The notes under the pieces: generated by a model
What the model was told of the DNA's origin: nothing
What the model saw: only the letters and a program-made list of their open reading frames with translations
The model's database searches: none
IMG/VR virus record: IMGVR_UViG_3300021407_000028
Coordinates: 1-37,989 of that record
DNA length: 37,989 nt
Direction: 5' to 3' (one strand)
Source: a virus
In this document: piece after piece, positions 16,743-29,956 of the stretch
How the letters are laid out: each line of letters begins with the position of its first letter
How positions within the stretch are numbered: the stretch's first letter is position 1
Made by a program: the position numbers and the translations under genes

Positions 16743-17015
16743 TCACGCCACCGCGTTAGCTGGCTTTTTAGGCTTCCCTCTGTTAGGCAAGGTTGCTAAC
16801 CTATGCTCAACATTGCGATAGGGCGGGGGGTAGATGTCAGGCCGCAGATCGTGTCGTGAAATGCCCGAGAGGCGCTCGACCGCGAGCACCCGCTCAGCAG
16901 GAACGCGCTTCCATTTGGCCACCGCACCGGTGGTGATCCCCAAGGCTTGGGAGATCGCGGCCTGCAACCCCCGCGTGGCCCGGATGCGGTCCATGCCGAT
17001 CAGCATTTCGTCCAT
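16743..17015 (-). CDS. Cro-like repressor (YdaS-type HTH)
   Basis: Encodes 90 aa, the first gene of the leftward arm. Residues 8-66 match the YdaS/Cro fold: GLQAAISQALGITTGAVAKW (16-35), a helix-turn-helix, then RVPAERVLAVERLSGISRHD and LRPDIYPP. This is the standard family of phage Cro and YdaS regulators. ATG 17015 is used; Met4 and Met8 are later alternatives. It is divergent from the CI-like repressor, with two copies of a 17-bp operator between them, so the two probably form the lysis-lysogeny switch. Confidence 0.85.
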   Translation of the reverse strand: MDEMLIGMDRIRATRGLQAAISQALGITTGAVAKWKRVPAERVLAVERLSGISRHDLRPDIYPPPYRNVEHRLATLPNRGKPKKPANAVA

Positions 17016-17022
17016 GGTTTAC

Positions 17023-17039
17023 GGTTACCATGGGTAGGC
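17023..17039. promoter_or_regulatory. Operator copy 1 (switch region)
   Basis: GGTTACC-ATG-GGTAGGC, an imperfect dyad with one mismatch per half-site from GCTTACC-NNN-GGTAAGC. It lies just upstream of the Cro-like start and probably covers its promoter. Confidence 0.6.
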
Positions 17040-17047
17040 GTTCGCGC

Positions 17048-17059
17048 GCAATCGATTGC
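17048..17059. repeat. Perfect 12-bp palindrome between the switch operators
   Basis: GCAATCGATTGC, overlapping the first two bases of operator copy 2. It could extend the protein-binding region of the switch. Confidence 0.5.
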
Positions 17060-17074
17060 TTACCCGTGGGTGTC
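17058..17074. promoter_or_regulatory. Operator copy 2 (switch region)
   Basis: GCTTACC-CGT-GGGTGTC. The left half-site is a perfect match to the shared motif and the right half is degenerate. It lies upstream of the CI-like repressor and its TACACT -10 candidate at 17086-17091. Confidence 0.55.
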
Positions 17075-17085
17075 GATTTTCTGGC

Positions 17086-17091
17086 TACACT
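17086..17091 (+). promoter_or_regulatory. -10 element for a possibly leaderless repressor mRNA
   Basis: TACACT ends 8 bases before the repressor ATG (17099) and no Shine-Dalgarno is present. Transcription would begin at or near the A of the start codon, as for lambda cI from PRM. No convincing -35 is seen, which would fit an activated promoter. Confidence 0.4.
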
Positions 17092-17098
17092 TTTGGCC

Positions 17099-17460
17099 AT
17101 GCCAGAGATGGGCCGTCGTCTTCTCGCCGCGCGGTTGCGCGCCGGCTACCGCACGCAGGGGCCTTTGCCAACGCCCTCGGGGTCAGCCGCGGCCTGGTCG
17201 GGCAATGGGAGACGGGTGCCAAGCACCCAGGCCGCAACAATCTCGCAAACATCGCCAAACTCTGCGGCATATCAATGGAATATCTGCAGGGCACCCAGGC
17301 CGATATGACCCGTTCGTTGGTTGTTTCAGTCGAGCAAGAGGCTCAACTCATCCTCCTGTTCCGCCGAATGACCCCGGTGGCGCGGGAGAATCTTCTCAAA
17401 CTGCTGTCGGAATGGGGCGATCGACCGCACGTTACAGAGAAGAAACGTCAGCCAGCGTAG
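17099..17460 (+). CDS. CI/Xre-type repressor, reading frame broken at GGGG
   Basis: From ATG 17099 the first 21 codons (MPEMGRRLLAARLRAGYRTQ...) give the start of an Xre-family HTH, but the frame then departs. A -1 shift at GGGG (17158-17161) joins it to AFANALGVSRGLVGQWETGA, ANIAKLCGISMEYLQG and a C-terminal helix region ending at 17460, for about 120 aa in total. The joined sequence is a textbook HTH_3 domain (recognition helix near residues 29-40), so the break is real as seen in this sequence. It may be a one-base deletion, an error or frameshifting. It lacks a LexA-type peptidase domain, so control is not by RecA cleavage. It is divergent from cro. Confidence 0.75.
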
Positions 17461-17794
17461 CTCCTGATCAAAAAGGTTTTCTGAGGTAGGCGCACCACTT
17501 CCCTGGCGGAACTTTTCTGCTTGCGTGGGTTGCTTACTTAGGGTAAGCATATCGGGTTCGCGCAACGGAGCCCGTCGCCCCATGTCAGCCTCCCAAAATT
17601 TGCTTGAGGAAACGTTCTGCGCGTTGCCGTACGCAATCAAAGCGCGGCGTTTACACACCCGTCAAGCGGGAATTGTAAGGCTGGCAGATCATTGTCTTTG
17701 TTCACGGATCTGTGAGCCAAAGGACGCTAGGACCAGTGGGCCGCGATCGGCCTCGTCGAGCATGAAATGGTAAGCACAACCGGAGATGATTACG
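17461..17794. other. Intergenic region between repressor and rightward early genes
   Basis: About 330 bases without a convincing gene. It contains the promoter/operator module at 17519-17553 and a half-site GGTAAGC at 17769-17775 close to the next gene. A possible 63-codon plus-strand ORF (17582-17773) has weak codon bias and no good ribosome site, and a minus-strand ORF here is mostly antisense to the repressor. Confidence 0.6.
17519..17553 (+). promoter_or_regulatory. Promoter/operator module with operator copy 3 (17532-17548)
   Basis: GCTTGCGT at 17519-17526 is followed by GTTGCTTAC, then GGTAAGC and a TAT. The embedded dyad GCTTACT-TAG-GGTAAGC differs from the consensus at one base. The same layout with identical spacing recurs at 19096-19130. 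A -35-like TTGCGT and a -10-like TAAGCA are 17 bases apart, so a repressor bound here would block the promoter of the rightward early genes. Confidence 0.6.
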
Positions 17795-17962
17795 ATGAAC
17801 ATTCGCACTGAGATGCACCCGTGCCCGTGGGGTCCGGAGTGGTACGCGATCGATGACGACACCTATGACGGCGCGCCCGATGGCCGCCACATGGCCGGTG
17901 TCGGTGCCACCGAGGCCGAGGCGATCGCCGATCTGCTGGCGTGGCTGGAGGATGCGCAATGA
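17795..17962 (+). CDS. Small early protein of unknown function
   Basis: Encodes 55 aa from ATG 17795 (GGAG 9 bases upstream). Begins MNIRTEMHPCPWGPEWYAID and ends in a helix (ATEAEAIADLLAWLEDAQ), the layout of small domains in which a beta hairpin is followed by a helix. It overlaps the next gene by ATGA. No family is recognised. Confidence 0.65.
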   Translation: MNIRTEMHPCPWGPEWYAIDDDTYDGAPDGRHMAGVGATEAEAIADLLAWLEDAQ

Positions 17963-18129
17963 GCACCTGTGAAAACTGCGACGGCGAAGGTGGCTGGGCG
18001 CGGATCGAGCGCGACTGGTACGGCGAAGCCGACAGCGAAACCTGGGACGATTGTCCGGCTTGCGGCGGTTGCGGTTGGGTCTATGCCGATCCGCCGCAGC
18101 TCGACATGGACGAGGCGTTCGAGCCATGA
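17959..18129 (+). CDS. Small DnaJ-type zinc-ribbon protein
   Basis: Encodes 56 aa from ATG 17959. Two knuckles are visible, CENCDGEGGW near the start and CPACGGCGWV near residue 33, followed by an acidic tail. It is similar in layout to the minus-strand gene at 12560 and the plus-strand gene at 21683. It is coupled to both neighbours by ATGA-type overlaps. Probably a zinc-binding adaptor; function is unknown. Confidence 0.7.
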   Translation: MSTCENCDGEGGWARIERDWYGEADSETWDDCPACGGCGWVYADPPQLDMDEAFEP

Positions 18130-18305
18130 CACCTGATCAGGCTTTTGTGCTGTGGTTTGTCTCGCTGAACCTGCGCGAGCGCGCGCTCGAGGGCACACCC
18201 CTTTCGCTCTGTGAGATGGGTCAGGTGGCCGAGGTGATCGACCACGCCCGCGACGACCAGATTGCCACCATCGATGCTTTGCTAAAGGGACTCGACTTAT
18301 GTTGA
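18126..18305 (+). CDS. Small helical early protein
   Basis: Encodes 59 aa from ATG 18126, overlapping the previous stop (ATGA). Sequence includes FVLWFVSLNLRERALEGTPL and MGQVAEVIDHARDDQIATID. It overlaps the exonuclease start by 7 bases. No family is recognised. Confidence 0.65.
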   Translation: MTPDQAFVLWFVSLNLRERALEGTPLSLCEMGQVAEVIDHARDDQIATIDALLKGLDLC

Positions 18306-19087
18306 CTGACGAACAGAAACGCCTGCGCGAAGGCAAGGTCACCGCCTCGTTTGTGCCGTATCTGATGGCGGGCCAGGAGGATAAGATCCGCCGCGAGTGG
18401 ATGCGGCTGGTCGAGCACCCCGGCTATGCCGAAGAGGATCTGAGCGAGGTCTGGGCACCCTCGTTTGGCGCTTACGTAGAACCTTTTGCCCTTGATTGGC
18501 ACGCACGCAAGACCGGACACCCGCTCACCCTGCGCGGCCAGTGGGTGCAGCACGCCGAGCATCCCTGGCTGGGGGCCACCCTCGACGCCTGGCGCGAGCA
18601 CGACAGCACGGTGCTCGATTGCAAGGCGCCGTTGCGCTGGTCAAAGCTCGATGATGTGCGCGCCTTTTATGTCGGGCAGTTGGTCATCCAGAAATCTTGC
18701 CTTAATGCCGAGCGCGCCGCGCTGCTGGTCGTCCATGGCGGCGACGAGCCGGTCGAATTGGAGACGGTCTGGGACGCTGCGTATGAAGCGCAGGTATGGG
18801 AGCGCCTCCACTGGTTCTGGGGTCGTGTCGAGAGCCTGCAGCCGCCCTGTGCGCTGCCCCGGGTCCAGGGCCCGGTGCCGGCGGTCCGCATCGTCGACAT
18901 GACGGGTAACAACATGTGGGGCAGCTACGCGGCGAACTGGCTCAACGCCAAGGAGGCGGCCGAGTGCTTCAACCGGGCGGCAAAGAGCCTCAAGGAACTA
19001 GTCGAGCCGGATGTGCAGAAGGCGTTCGGGCACGGCATCTGCGCCAGCCGCAGCAAGGCCGGGGCAATCAGCATCAAACAAATGTGA
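18299..19087 (+). CDS. YqaJ-type viral recombinase (lambda exonuclease-like)
   Basis: A 262-aa 5'-3' exonuclease of the PD-(D/E)xK superfamily. It begins with REGKVTASFVPYLMAG, typical of YqaJ proteins. Catalytic candidates are Glu61 in YVEPFALDW, Asp96 in LGATLDAW, and Asp107 with Lys109 in VLDCKAPLRW. YVGQLVIQ (124-131) is the conserved helix with Gln. It resects double-stranded ends so that the ERF protein encoded downstream can anneal the strands. Expression is coupled to the previous gene. Confidence 0.88.
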   Translation: MLTDEQKRLREGKVTASFVPYLMAGQEDKIRREWMRLVEHPGYAEEDLSEVWAPSFGAYVEPFALDWHARKTGHPLTLRGQWVQHAEHPWLGATLDAWREHDSTVLDCKAPLRWSKLDDVRAFYVGQLVIQKSCLNAERAALLVVHGGDEPVELETVWDAAYEAQVWERLHWFWGRVESLQPPCALPRVQGPVPAVRIVDMTGNNMWGSYAANWLNAKEAAECFNRAAKSLKELVEPDVQKAFGHGICASRSKAGAISIKQM

Positions 19088-19095
19088 CGATTTCC

Positions 19096-19130
19096 GCTTG
19101 CGTCTGTTGCTTACCAATGGTAAGCGTATG
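19096..19130 (+). promoter_or_regulatory. Promoter/operator module with operator copy 4 (19109-19125)
   Basis: GCTTGCGT at 19096-19103, then GTTGCTTACC-AAT-GGTAAGC, a perfect 7-bp dyad, then a TAT. The spacing is identical to 17519-17553. A further half-site GGTAAGC lies at 19132-19138. It probably drives the ERF-containing genes beginning at 19154 and places them under the same repressor. Confidence 0.65.
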
Positions 19131-19153
19131 AGGTAAGCAGATGGAAGGACGAG

Positions 19154-19488: not shown

Positions 19489-20391
19489 ATGAACGACATC
19501 TCCCCCATCATCGAGCGTGACGAAGTCGCGCTGATCCCGCAGCCGGTGTTTCTGCCGCTGGCCTCGCCCAGCTGCGCCCAGGTCTGCGCCGCGTTGGCGA
19601 GCGCGCAGGGCGTGATGAAAACCCCCAAGCGCACCAAGGAGGCGACGATCAAGGGCAACGGCTACAGCTACACCTACAAATACGCCCCGCTCGAGGAGAT
19701 CGTTGACGCGGTCAAGGAAGCGCTCGCCGCCAATGGTCTGGCGCGGCATCAGTACCTCGTCACCCGCGGCAGCCAACCCGTGATGCGCACCATCATCTGG
19801 CACGCCAGCGGCGAGTGGATTGCCTCGGACTATCCGATCCACCCGACCAAGGAGGGTCCGCAGGGATTTGCGTCTGGGGTTACCTACGCCCGGCGCTACG
19901 GCCTCAGCTTGGCCTTGGGGCTCGCCCCCGAGGACGATGACGATGCCAATGTCGCGGAGGGACAATTCCCTTACGGCAGAGCCGAGCCTGCGATACCCGG
20001 TCGTATTCCTGCCTCCACGGCACCCGCCAATGGTAACGGCGCGCCGAAGCCGCCGGGCCCGCTGCCCAAGGAACCGCCGCCGCCCGAGGTGCACGATCCC
20101 GAGACCGGCGAGATCGGCCCGCATTTGATCCCGGTGCTGCAATCGCAGCTCGGCAAGGCGGACTGGCTTGGCTGGGGCGGCAAGCTGGTGACGGCATTGC
20201 AGACTGCGAAGACCCGCGAGGAGGGTGAGGCATGGATCAGGGCCTGCCAGGCGGCGCTCGGCAATTGCGACCGGGATGCGCCCAAGGTGCACGAGCGCGT
20301 CCAGGCGAATATCCGGGTGATGCGCGAGCGGCTCCCCGATTTTATGGTGGCGCCCGACAGCCTCACCTCCCTAAGGACAGGACAGTTATGA
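19489..20391 (+). CDS. erf: ERF family single-strand annealing protein
   Basis: A 300-aa recombination protein. The ERF core spans about residues 25-160: CAALASAQGVMKTPKR, YTYKYAPLEEIVDAVKEALA, GFASGVTYARRYGLSLALGL and the acidic EDDDDAN that ends the domain. A Pro-rich linker (about 180-215) and a C-terminal helical domain follow, as in P22 Erf. It forms rings that anneal complementary strands after resection by the YqaJ-type exonuclease, aiding genome circularisation and recombination. A ribosome site GGAG lies upstream of ATG 19489. Confidence 0.9.
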   Translation: MNDISPIIERDEVALIPQPVFLPLASPSCAQVCAALASAQGVMKTPKRTKEATIKGNGYSYTYKYAPLEEIVDAVKEALAANGLARHQYLVTRGSQPVMRTIIWHASGEWIASDYPIHPTKEGPQGFASGVTYARRYGLSLALGLAPEDDDDANVAEGQFPYGRAEPAIPGRIPASTAPANGNGAPKPPGPLPKEPPPPEVHDPETGEIGPHLIPVLQSQLGKADWLGWGGKLVTALQTAKTREEGEAWIRACQAALGNCDRDAPKVHERVQANIRVMRERLPDFMVAPDSLTSLRTGQL

Positions 20392-22505: not shown

Positions 22506-22754
22506 ATGACCCGTTGGCTGTCGCTCCCCCACGCAGCCGAGCACCTCGACCTCAGCGTCGATTCGCTGCGCCGCCTGGTACGCCAGGGCAAGCTGCCCCC
22601 GCCCGATCGCAGCCTCGGTGTGCGCCTGCCGCGGTGGGACAAGGAAGCGCTTGACAATGCCATGCAGGATCGGCCTCGCTCGCTGAGCAATCCTCAACAC
22701 GCATTGGAGATCTGGCTTGAAAAACAGAAACGTGCGCGGCGAGCCGCCGGCTGA
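22506..22754 (+). CDS. Excisionase-like HTH protein (AlpA/HTH_17 type)
   Basis: Encodes 82 aa from ATG 22506 with AAGGAGG upstream. The N-terminal half is a winged-helix pattern: WLSLPHAAEHLDLSVDSLRR, then LVRQGKLPPPDRSLGVRLPR and WDKEALD. This is the AlpA/MerR-like fold of phage excisionases and recombination directionality factors. It directly precedes and overlaps the integrase, as xis genes usually do. Together they control integration and excision. Confidence 0.75.
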   Translation: MTRWLSLPHAAEHLDLSVDSLRRLVRQGKLPPPDRSLGVRLPRWDKEALDNAMQDRPRSLSNPQHALEIWLEKQKRARRAAG

Positions 22755-23607
22755 ACGCATTCTTGCCGCTGTCGTCAGAGCCTGGCAACGCAGCCCCGAA
22801 TGGGATGTCCTGGCAGCCGGAACGCAGCGCAACTACGTGCTTTATCTACGTCCGCTGCATGAGGCGATGAAGCTCGTCCCGATCAGCGAAATCAAACGCA
22901 GCCATATCCTCGAGATCCGCAACCAGATCGCCGCCGATCGCGGCCATGGCGCCGCACTTAACTTTGCTCGCGCTGTCGGCGCGTTTTTTACCTGGGCGCT
23001 GGAGAACGACATCATCGAATTGTCGCCGGCCCTCAAGCTGGCAACCAAACTCAAACGCGGCTCGTTGCCGGCGTGGCGCCACGACCAAGCGCAGCGTGCA
23101 ATGCGCGAGCTTCCCGAGCCGTATCGCCGCGCCGTCGTCCTCGCCTATTACACAGGCCAGCGCCGCGGCGACCTCTGCCGGCTGCGCTGGGACGACTATG
23201 ACGGGCGTGTGATCCGCCTCACCCAGGTGAAAACCCGCGAGCCCCTCGAGATCCCGGTGTGGCGACTGCCTGAGTTTCAAGCCGACCTCGCGGTGTGGAA
23301 AGCCGACCGCCATAGCCTCACCATCCTCGAATATCGCAACAAGCCGTGGGATCCGAACTACCTCTCGACCTGGCTCCCCGATCACCTCAAGCGCATTGGC
23401 CTGCCGCGCGAGCTTGGACTGCATGGCTTGCGGCGTCTGACCGCGATCCGCCTGGCGGAGGCGGGGTGCTCGACGCACGAGATCGCTGCAATTACCGGGC
23501 ACCGCACCCTGCAGATGGTGCAGGAATACACCCGCGGCGTTAGGCAGCGCACGCTGGCGGATGTTGCCTACCTGCGGCTAGCGGGGAAAACCACCGACAA
23601 CCTCTAA
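22717..23607 (+). CDS. int: Tyrosine integrase
   Basis: A 296-aa site-specific recombinase. The N-terminal part is the SAM-like core-binding domain (about 25-110). Catalytic residues are Arg149 in YYTGQRRGDLCRLRW, Lys172 in QVKTREP, His236 and Arg239 in LHGLRRLTA, His262 in ITGHRT and nucleophile Tyr271 in VQEYTRG. Starting at TTG 22717 gives a GGAG 7 bases upstream and overlaps the excisionase gene by 38 bases. It is slightly short for phage integrases and seems to lack an arm-binding domain. Its presence makes the phage temperate. The attachment site may lie just downstream. Confidence 0.92.
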   Translation: MKNRNVRGEPPAERILAAVVRAWQRSPEWDVLAAGTQRNYVLYLRPLHEAMKLVPISEIKRSHILEIRNQIAADRGHGAALNFARAVGAFFTWALENDIIELSPALKLATKLKRGSLPAWRHDQAQRAMRELPEPYRRAVVLAYYTGQRRGDLCRLRWDDYDGRVIRLTQVKTREPLEIPVWRLPEFQADLAVWKADRHSLTILEYRNKPWDPNYLSTWLPDHLKRIGLPRELGLHGLRRLTAIRLAEAGCSTHEIAAITGHRTLQMVQEYTRGVRQRTLADVAYLRLAGKTTDNL

Positions 23608-26845: not shown

Positions 26846-27229
26846 ATGGCGCACATCATTGGCATCGCGCTCACACTGGCCATTACATACTGGCTGGCCC
26901 AAAAGGCGCGCCGGCTACCCAACGCCGTAAAAAACATCTTCATCATCGGCGGCGGATTTTTCCTGCTTGTCTTGCAGATCGGCGTTGTTGCCGTGTTGGT
27001 CGGTGACGTCCTCGCCAATCGCAGCAACACCTCCTTTGGCGATTTTGCCGTCTTCTGTGTGTCCGTTGCCATGCTCATGGTGTGGAACGCTTTTCTCTCC
27101 CTCAATATCGCGCAGCGGCTCATGCTGATGGGTCTCTACAAAGGGATGCGAGAGCAGCAATGGAAAGCCGCGCCGCCATACGGAGGAGGCGCCAATCCGC
27201 GGGTCTCCTGGACCGATTACCAGGGGTAA
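26846..27229 (+). CDS. Membrane protein, antisense island in the ejection/tail module
   Basis: Encodes 127 aa from ATG 26846 with GGTGAGG upstream. Three or four hydrophobic stretches are visible: IIGIALTLAITYWLA (4-18), IFIIGGGFFLLVLQIGVVAV (about 31-50) and FAVFCVSVAMLMVWNAFLSL (about 68-87). The C-terminal tail is soluble. It lies on the strand opposite to the surrounding late genes, and its TAA directly abuts the stop of the ejection protein gene at 27230. This position fits a moron gene expressed from its own promoter in lysogens, for example for superinfection exclusion. Holin function is also possible. Confidence 0.75.
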   Translation: MAHIIGIALTLAITYWLAQKARRLPNAVKNIFIIGGGFFLLVLQIGVVAVLVGDVLANRSNTSFGDFAVFCVSVAMLMVWNAFLSLNIAQRLMLMGLYKGMREQQWKAAPPYGGGANPRVSWTDYQG

Positions 27230-29956
27230 TCATGGACCACCGCTAAGCGCGCGAACGCCCTTTCCGCCGATATTGAGCACGCGATCCAACAGCGCCTTCT
27301 GCAACATCGCTTCGCCAGCAGCCGTATTGGGCGTCAGTTTGTTCTCGACCCAGCGTGCCGCACCAATGCCAACGGGCGAACCAAGCGCGGCCCCTGCGTA
27401 ACCTCCGGTGATGGGATCGAGAAAAGTCCCGACCAATCCCCCAGCGATCCCTCCGGCCACCTGCCCCGCCGCTCGCGCGCCGGTACCCATCAAGGCGTTT
27501 TTGTAGCCGGCCCCCAGTATGTTCTGTGCGGTATTGCTGCCAAACGCCCGACCTTTCTGAAGATTTGCCCTCTCCTGCAGCGTATCGCGCAATGCATAGA
27601 GTTGATTGAGCTGGTCTGGCGTCAACGCATCGGCCGACTGCCAGCCTGACTTGAGGTAACGCTGGTTCTCGACATCCCTGATTGTTGCGTTCACCTGGCC
27701 CAGCGTGGGGTCGCCGGCAGAGTTGGTGAGATTGCGGCCGAGGAGGTATTCCTGCCCCTCGATCGGCTTCTTCTGTTCGCTCACCTGCTGCATGTAGGAA
27801 GGGTACTCGGGAGCCCCGGCCGCAATATCGGCATCAAGCTGCGTCTTTACCGGGCCCATTTGCCCAGCGGCAAATCGGATCTTGGAATCGGTGTCACGAG
27901 CCAATCCCGAAATCTTATCGTTGATCGTTCTGCGGACCATGTAGAGCGTTTCGGGGTCGGTCTGAAGAACCGGGTTTCCGTCCTGATCCAGCAGCGGCTT
28001 TCCCGTCTGCGGGTTTGTTTTATAGAACAGGTTTTTGGTCTCGCGCAGGCCGGCGGCGATATCGGGATTCCCCTGGGCCTCGGGACTCTTGAGCAGATCG
28101 TCTATGGTGCTAATCGTCGGCTCGACACTGGTCGGCGTGGTGTTGCTAAACGTCGAAGCCTTCTTGGCAGCCGTTGCTCTGTTAACCGCCGCATCAGCCG
28201 CGGCATAATCCTCCATCGTACCCCGCAGGTTCAGCACGGCGTTTTGCCCCGCTGCGTTCTGCCCTCTGTCAACCTCGCCAAAGGTATTGGCAAGGGGCGG
28301 CTCGTTGCGCAGCGTGCGCTCTAGCGAGGCTCCCCCTTCGTTGCCCGTGATCTGGGCCAGCGTACCCTCGTGCCCCGGTATGCGCGTACCGGGCATCGGT
28401 GTCGTATTGCCGCCAGCATAATAGTGCCTGATCAATTCATCGGCCCGAGCCTCGGCATCCGCCTGGGTCTTGATCGGGCTCGTAAGCGGTGGCGGCTCTT
28501 CGGGAATTGCGACACCGGGCAACGCACCGCCGGGCACCAGGCGCGGCTGCGGTGTGTACGCGGGATTATCTGCGGGAATCGCAGATGAAGTTGGCGGCGT
28601 TGCTGCTCCAGGTTCCGGAGTTGGTTCGCCGATTGCGGGCGGCTGGATACGCGCGCCGGGCGGCGGCAGCCCCGGTGGATTGCCCGGTGGGGTAAGCGGG
28701 CCAGGCGGCAACTCCCAACGCTGCGGCGCTTCCCAAGGCGCGAGAATATCTTGGTTGCCGTAGGGCTGCCGCCGCGTGATCGGGATTGACCCGACCTGAG
28801 TAGCCGGCGCGACCGGCCTGTTCATCAAGATATCGAATGCCGGATCAAATAGCTTGTTGACGATGGGTGCAGCGCGCGTCAGCAGCGCATTTCCAATCGC
28901 GGCCCTAGTGTCTTCGCCCTTGACGATGTCGGGCGCCAGATCAAAGCGGCGCGGATCCTTGAGGTTAGCGATGTATTGCCGCCCAGCCCCGGTGAGCGAT
29001 GTCATCCCCCCAGCCGTAGCCGCTGCTGCCGTTGGGCCGCCATACAGCTCGGCGAGAGCAGTCGGCCCCCAGATCAGCGCGCTCTGGGCCATATTGGGAA
29101 GCTCGGCCGCGCCGCCGCGAACAAGGTTGGCGGGATCAAACGATCCGGATGTCTCCGGTGCCAGCGGCGACGTCGTGGCGTAGGGATTGACGTGGAACGA
29201 TGGTGTGGTGTCCCAAGTCCCATCGTCTTTCTTGGTAATCGACTTGTCAGAGGCAAAGACCTGCTGCGGCTCGATATAGTAGGGCTGCCCCTGAGGATCC
29301 ACCGCAGCCATTCGACCGCCGGGACCAATGATAATGCTGTCCAATGGGACGCCAAGTTGGTGGGCTGCGGTACGCGCCCTTTGCGCCGGATCGGTTGATG
29401 CGTTGATCGCAAGCTGAAATTCCGCACCAGGCACGCGGTCCTCGGCGATCGGTATGCCGACAGCCTTGGCGCTGGGACTCTGCGCCGAATACAGCGATGG
29501 CTGGTTGTCGGTGGACTTGCCCTTGTCATCGACCTGCGGCTTCAGATCAAGGATTGTCTGTGTCGCTGGATCGGGCGCGCCGGCTTGCATCGGGGCCGGC
29601 GCCGCGGCGGGTGTTCCCTGCTCATCGGTCTGCGGTTTTAGGCCCCGGATAATATCTTCCGGCGATTGCTGTGGCGCTTCGGCATTAACGGGCGGCGTGT
29701 CGGGTTTTGCAGGCGGTTCCTGATAAACAAAGGAAGTGCTGTTCTGCGCATTCGTCGGCACGCTCGGTGCCGGTTGTCCCGGGTTGCCTTTTGACGTTGT
29801 GCCGTACCCGGGCGTCCGTGCCGACGGTCTGACGTTGCTGTAGGTCGGCTGCCCATAGGTCGGCGATGCCGGGTCATTATCGATCGGCGGTCCACCGACC
29901 GGCCAAAAAAGAGGATTAAGAGCCGGTGGCGCGTATGTGCCGGGAACGAGCGGCAT
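27230..29956 (-). CDS. Large DNA ejection protein (P22 gp16 position)
   Basis: A 908-aa internal virion protein. Residues 1-160 are Pro/Gln/Gly-rich. Residues about 290-345 include a hydrophobic helical segment (MAQSALIWGPTALAELYGGP). Residues 415-500 are again Pro-rich. The C-terminal 350 residues are helical with a hydrophobic Gly-rich end (GAGYKNALMGTGARAAGQVA, GGIAGGLVGTFLDP, GYAGAALGSPVGIG) suited to membrane insertion. Third of three consecutive ejection-type genes, equivalent in order to gp16. It is expected to leave the head with DNA and form a channel across the envelope. Sequence identity to gp16 is not claimed. The start overlaps the previous stop (TAATG). Confidence 0.7.
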   Translation of the reverse strand: MPLVPGTYAPPALNPLFWPVGGPPIDNDPASPTYGQPTYSNVRPSARTPGYGTTSKGNPGQPAPSVPTNAQNSTSFVYQEPPAKPDTPPVNAEAPQQSPEDIIRGLKPQTDEQGTPAAAPAPMQAGAPDPATQTILDLKPQVDDKGKSTDNQPSLYSAQSPSAKAVGIPIAEDRVPGAEFQLAINASTDPAQRARTAAHQLGVPLDSIIIGPGGRMAAVDPQGQPYYIEPQQVFASDKSITKKDDGTWDTTPSFHVNPYATTSPLAPETSGSFDPANLVRGGAAELPNMAQSALIWGPTALAELYGGPTAAAATAGGMTSLTGAGRQYIANLKDPRRFDLAPDIVKGEDTRAAIGNALLTRAAPIVNKLFDPAFDILMNRPVAPATQVGSIPITRRQPYGNQDILAPWEAPQRWELPPGPLTPPGNPPGLPPPGARIQPPAIGEPTPEPGAATPPTSSAIPADNPAYTPQPRLVPGGALPGVAIPEEPPPLTSPIKTQADAEARADELIRHYYAGGNTTPMPGTRIPGHEGTLAQITGNEGGASLERTLRNEPPLANTFGEVDRGQNAAGQNAVLNLRGTMEDYAAADAAVNRATAAKKASTFSNTTPTSVEPTISTIDDLLKSPEAQGNPDIAAGLRETKNLFYKTNPQTGKPLLDQDGNPVLQTDPETLYMVRRTINDKISGLARDTDSKIRFAAGQMGPVKTQLDADIAAGAPEYPSYMQQVSEQKKPIEGQEYLLGRNLTNSAGDPTLGQVNATIRDVENQRYLKSGWQSADALTPDQLNQLYALRDTLQERANLQKGRAFGSNTAQNILGAGYKNALMGTGARAAGQVAGGIAGGLVGTFLDPITGGYAGAALGSPVGIGAARWVENKLTPNTAAGEAMLQKALLDRVLNIGGKGVRALSGGP

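Follow-up and report, generated by a model that had tools for sequence, protein, structure and literature searches.

Predicted operators of a P22/lambda-type immunity region in an uncultured temperate phage, with a putative third operator-promoter inside the recombination operon

The 17-bp dyads that match GCTTACCNNNGGTAAGC in the phage record analysed here are real. With a probability of roughly 85%, they are repressor/Cro operators of an immunity region of the P22/lambda type, the copy at 19109-19125 (copy 4) being a predicted third operator-promoter. The window is the complete virus record, of 37,989 bp. The initial annotation listed four dyads (copies 1 to 4, at 17023, 17058, 17532 and 19109) and described them as a distributed regulon rather than a lambda-type pair of operators. 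That contrast fails for copies 1-3, since these fall into OR and OL clusters and the same two-cluster layout is found in all ten relatives. It is only copy 4 that goes beyond a lambda pair, as a predicted operator specific to one lineage.

The phage is temperate by its gene content, as the window encodes an integrase, an ERF protein, a RecE/YqaJ-like exonuclease and head genes (portal, scaffold and major head protein). A Megablast search with the dyad region found no relatives in phages, a genome-scale CI search of the genome collection found no relative, and a CI search in annotated phages returned a single distant match only. Relatives of the Cro protein occur mostly in alphaproteobacteria. 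An Rfam scan gave no convincing match. The features around the proposed OR are as follows.

16743-17015, minus strand: cro-like gene, 90 aa, YdaS / P22_Cro family
17023-17039, unstranded: predicted operator OR1, GGTTACC-ATG-GGTAGGC, 2 mismatches, at the same place in 10 relatives
17046-17051, minus strand: proposed -35 TTGCGC of the leftward cro promoter, TTG at -11/-12 in 9 of 11 phages
17058-17074, unstranded: weak predicted operator OR2, left half good, 4 mismatches, position conserved
17100-17460, plus strand: cI-like repressor gene, P22 C2-like HTH, no S24 domain

The cro-like protein matches the YdaS and P22_Cro families (PF15943, 2.9e-12; PF14549, 2.4e-6), and its nearest solved relatives are the Cro protein 3bd1 and the P22-type Cro 1rzs. 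The repressor, of about 120 aa, consists of a P22 C2-like HTH and two C-terminal helices. Its nearest solved relative is P22 C2 (1adr, 1.2e-8), which gives it a P22 C2/434-type DNA-binding domain, and its structural model (mean pLDDT 82) is similar to 3jxb and 2r1j across 61-65 residues. It lacks the self-cleaving S24 domain that classical SOS-induced repressors carry at the C-terminus; thus, the switch is lambda/P22-like in layout and is not filed with the classical self-cleaving repressors. The likely start codon lies 8-9 bases after TACACT, which suggests that the repressor message may be leaderless. In the window, the reading frame of the repressor gene is broken by one base within a G run (17158-17161), reflecting either a sequencing error or a mutant phage; the gene is intact in L127, L088 and L007.

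The short P22 C2-like repressor is most likely the main binder of the dyads. Cro probably binds the same dyads, and the roles of CI and Cro are not separable from sequence. A change in the recognition helix (R to H, or Q to A) coincides with C at dyad position 5 of OR1 in four of four changed phages and in none of the seven others. Because the phages are related, this association is suggestive only.

The dyads differ in their strength against chance. GCTTACCNNNGGTAAGC is exact at 19109-19125, has one mismatch at 17532-17548 and two at 17023-17039, and these three sites stand far above chance. Among 420 dyads in the arm-permutation control (same arm), no other reaches the counts of GCTTACCNNNGGTAAGC at <=0, <=1 or <=2 mismatches. 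At <=3 mismatches, the window has 10 matches against 1.1 expected from shuffles, so the counts do exceed the equal-composition shuffles that had been named as a possible refutation. However, six arms, including that of GCTTACCNNNGGTAAGC, reach 10 at this threshold; the remaining 3-mismatch matches elsewhere are therefore uninformative and to be ignored.

A weight matrix was trained on the sites of other phages, with the window and L127 left out. The sites at 19109 (26.3 bits) and 17532 (24.6 bits) rank first and second in the window, and the best of 60 shuffled windows reaches 17.0. Two of the four dyads are thus above the shuffled maximum; 17023 (15.7 bits) and 17058 (9.7 bits) remain below the shuffled maximum. 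The copy at 17058-17074, GCTTACCCGTGGGTGTC, does not hold as a full dyad: it has 4 mismatches, only its left half is good, and its score is under the mean shuffled maximum (10.1), although its position is conserved. The half-sites at 17769 and 19132, which had also been offered as evidence, are single 7-mers and prove little alone, since the whole window has 10 of these. Seven of the 10 lie within 16.9-19.4 kb, a clustering that may be relevant, each alone being weak. Another perfect dyad, GATTACCAGGGGTAATC, lies at 27215-27231, with 2 mismatches to the operator and a score of 17.5 bits, which shuffles nearly reach.

Ten other viral contigs carry a divergent cro/cI-like pair: L127, L088, L007, L157, L160, L161, L162, L170, L104 and L130. 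L157, L160, L161, L162 and L170 were brought in by profiles of the repressor-like protein; L088, L007, L157, L162 and L170 were fetched by regulator protein sequence only. L104 and L130 were fetched blind by the exact DNA pattern, and their divergent pair was confirmed afterwards. All ten relatives have the dyad in two positions, one in the cro-cI intergenic region and one 25-90 bp beyond the cI stop codon; in five phages with a divergent cI, OL1 lies exactly 72 bp past the gene. In the close relative L127 the three strong sites (OR1, OL1 and copy 4) are all retained, and the more distant L088 and L007 keep OR and OL.

Across the eleven records (330 kb), 30 sites have <=2 mismatches: 25 belong to OR or OL, 2 are copy 4, and 3 lie elsewhere. 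No site with <=1 mismatch was found outside OR/OL in these records save copy 4. No site with <=1 mismatch occurs in 1.48 Mb from 127 loci that carry other Cro relatives, and the dyad therefore tracks the CI family. Another 49 contigs with the exact dyad were rejected as relatives, being without the gene pair save for one weak, distant CI match; by a rough estimate, their number is about the chance level for the size of the collection. The related phages L087 (5855-6214) and L089 (7219-7548) have a similar exonuclease and cro but lack a repressor gene between cro and the early operon. Several findings count against the operator reading. L087 has operator-like modules and cro, with no CI detectable on the record, and in L171 (4896-5117) a CI relative occurs in another gene context, with neither cro nor operators. 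In the phage of the window, OR2 and OL2 match poorly and the repressor gene is frame-broken.

The main dyads are preceded by TTG at a fixed distance, at -11 for OL in nine of eleven phages (binomial 2e-15, relatedness uncorrected) and at -11/-12 for cro, again in nine of eleven. They share a promoter-like design, TTGCNT-17/18-TAAGCN, in which the dyad falls within the spacer and -10. The region shows no consensus promoter of the E. coli sigma-70 type, and the proposed hexamers are therefore drawn from positional conservation only. If the -10 assignments and the start sites that they imply are correct, the dyad would occupy the spacer and -10, and a bound dimer would thus block RNA polymerase. 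The earlier proposal of repressor or Cro control over at least three rightward promoters is narrowed to at least two predicted rightward promoters, plus the leftward cro promoter.

OR would comprise the site at 17023 and the weak one at 17058, between the divergent cro and cI. OR1 overlaps the proposed leftward cro promoter, whose -10-like TAACCG lies inside the right arm of OR1. OR2 is 35 bp from OR1, and most relatives have a one-sided second site at 35-36 bp. A repressor gene and a cro gene that diverge around predicted operators are the arrangement of the lambda/P22 type.

The second cluster lies just past cI.

17485-17491, unstranded: OL-cluster half-site GGTAGGC, 5 bp ahead of OL2
17497-17513, unstranded: degenerate predicted operator OL2 (ACTTCCCTGGCGGAACT), 35 bp before OL1
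17521-17526, plus strand: proposed -35 TTGCGT of a PL-like promoter, TTG exactly at -11 in 9 of 11 phages
17532-17548, unstranded: predicted operator OL1 (copy 3), GCTTACT-TAG-GGTAAGC, 1 mismatch, matrix score 24.6, conserved
17769-17775, unstranded: half-site GGTAAGC before the first small ORF, identical in L127 only

The right arm of OL1 overlaps a -10-like TAAGCA (17544-17549). In lambda, OL/PL is followed by a left operon of recombination genes and the integrase. Here, cro runs leftward and cI rightward, and the operator past cI is followed by exo, ERF, NinB and integrase, which is the lambda OL/PL and left operon in mirror image. The same predicted operators thus recur at a second promoter beyond the repressor, ahead of the recombination and integration genes, as in lambda/P22-type phages. 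OL, with 17532, the degenerate 17497 and the half-site at 17485, would control this rightward operon from recombination to integrase.

The degenerate site at 17497-17513 and the half-site at 17485-17491 had been overlooked by the initial annotation, and both are positionally conserved. Most relatives have a degenerate second site 35 bp upstream at OL, plus the half-site, which is kept in most as GGTAAGC or GTAAGC; OL2 corresponds in position to better copies in relatives, for instance GCTTACCTAGAGTAAAC of L160.

The untranslated leader after OL1 (17550-17780) also has conserved elements. In the four closest phages CCGTCAAG is found at +127 to +130, counted from the start of the dyad, and a GTTCT box precedes it by about 50 bases, with ACGTTCT at +80 in three phages. 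These elements are perhaps related to antitermination or to an antisense promoter. A hairpin in the leader was considered as a nut-like element; its stem is not kept in L088.

Copy 4 lies further into the same operon.

18299-19087, plus strand: RecE/YqaJ-like exonuclease gene (phrog_434, 6.8e-18)
19098-19103, plus strand: proposed -35 TTGCGT of the third promoter, spacing as at copy 3
19109-19125, unstranded: third predicted operator (copy 4), GCTTACC-AAT-GGTAAGC, perfect dyad, kept in L127
19132-19138, unstranded: half-site GGTAAGC after copy 4, identical in L127
19154-19471, plus strand: small-ORF cassette (61 aa + 43 aa), downstream of copy 4 and separating exo from ERF
19489-20391, plus strand: ERF single-strand annealing protein gene (PF04404, 1.2e-18)
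22717-23607, plus strand: tyrosine integrase gene at the distal end of the rightward operon (phrog_1, 1e-33; PF00589, 5.5e-21)

Copy 4 is the best-scoring site of the genome. Its right arm overlaps a -10-like TAAGCG (19121-19126), and it is set in a promoter-like module, TTGCGT-17-TAAGCN, with the dyad within the spacer and -10. The longer module that copies 3 and 4 had been said to share, GCTTGCGT followed by 5 bases and the dyad, was confirmed, with equal spacing in relatives. The exact copy 4 site is limited to the window and L127. L087 has another sequence at the corresponding place: its 18-bp ATGGGTATACATATAGGC occurs exactly twice (0.01 expected), beside cro and between exo and the homologue of the 61-aa ORF. 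The 61-aa ORF, with an operator module ahead of it, is present in the window, L127 and L087, and the 43-aa ORF in the window and L127 only. Small ORFs separate exo from ERF in all three phages with a module at this position. L127 has one additional small ORF inserted in the exo-ERF region and retains the operator. In L088, 8 bp separate exo from ERF, with neither operator nor small ORFs there.

This distribution, in three phages only, supports copy 4 as a putative functional third operator that travels with the small-ORF cassette. It would be an operator-promoter of the same design as the others that came, or was kept, with the cassette between exo and ERF, and through it the repressor would also shut the ERF-to-integrase part separately. 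A tentative extension, to which we give somewhat under even odds, is that a portable unit of operator-promoter and small ORFs was inserted between exo and ERF, placing a second repressor-controlled promoter over the annealing protein and integrase. The operator of this unit would change together with the main operators, as the identity of the two L087 modules suggests. That copy 4 alone is a passive relic of an OL duplication, without function, is unlikely. The restriction of the exact site to the window and L127, the different sequence in L087 and the good conservation also of the wider exo-ERF region between the window and L127 would fit such a relic, but not the top score of the genome, the intact promoter module or the identical second copy of its own module that L087 holds at the corresponding place.

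A dispersed operator regulon in the style of mycobacteriophage L5 or P1 c1, with many repressor sites along the genome, would account for copy 4 lying outside OR and OL, and might take in the perfect dyad at 27215. However, that dyad lies at convergent gene ends, without the -35 module and with a score near the shuffled 17.0, and the 330 kb have no further site with <=1 mismatch outside OR/OL, far from the many copies of L5 or P1. We consider such a regulon improbable. A host transcription factor or nucleoid protein as the binder, instead of the phage regulators, is more improbable still, given that the dyads occur with the CI family, flank the cI gene and are missing from the 127 other Cro loci. 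The least credible reading is that the dyads act in RNA, as hairpins, terminators or processing signals: a 7-bp stem with a 3-base loop could form, but no T run follows the dyads, a terminator scan was negative there, and the sites lie at divergent promoters, on both strands, with a fixed -35 spacing.

Under the preferred reading, as repressor/Cro operators, the region is similar to P22 and lambda in the divergent cro and repressor around OR, and in the second operator-promoter past the repressor, ahead of the recombination genes and integrase. The C2-like repressor domain, the P22-type Cro and ERF are shared with P22. Unlike in these phages, the repressor has only about 120 aa and no self-cleaving C-terminal domain, the operator sequence is another one, and a third operator is predicted.

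The closest studied system is the PaaR2/YdaS pair of the E. coli O157:H7 cryptic prophage CP-933P (PMC8630535). PaaR2, the CI analogue, and YdaS, the Cro, are divergent there and bind OR repeats; the palindromic repeats over the divergent promoters comprise two well-conserved copies and two without the left half. Past the repressor operon, similar repeats are found at a PL promoter, which PaaR2 and YdaS both repress (PMC8630535). A YdaS-family Cro divergent from the repressor, with repeats at OR and PL, is thus common to both. The CP-933P operators differ, as 18-bp repeats with the consensus GTTTAGTAA, four of them at OR; CP-933P has YdaT and a toxin-antitoxin pair; and the available text does not report a third operator in the recombination operon (PMC8630535). 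HK022 has an extra CI operator 300 bp downstream of OR that is involved in immunity (PMC8053113), and is similar in that a third operator for the repressor lies apart from OR and OL. Copy 4, as predicted here, is instead found on the side of PL, some 1.6 kb past OL and ahead of the ERF gene. The Rac prophage likewise has a divergent repressor and ydaS-type gene, RacR/ydaS, with three intergenic repeats bound by RacR, but the repeat is GCCTAA/TTAGGC and no OL is described in the excerpt available (PMC5700373).

The layout itself is textbook, the operator sequence is new, and the putative third operator-promoter is the unusual, lineage-specific part. A sequence-defined operator for uncultured temperate phages with short repressors would make immunity groups predictable from DNA, and copy 4 would be a case of a third repressor-controlled promoter added within a recombination operon.

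A near and a far duplicated dyad beside cro is also seen in two prophages, L218 (4912, 3971) in Martelella and L252 (4896, 4315) in Citrobacter, whose near/far dyad sequences differ (TGAAAGCTAGGCTTTCA; GCTACTTAAAGTAGT).
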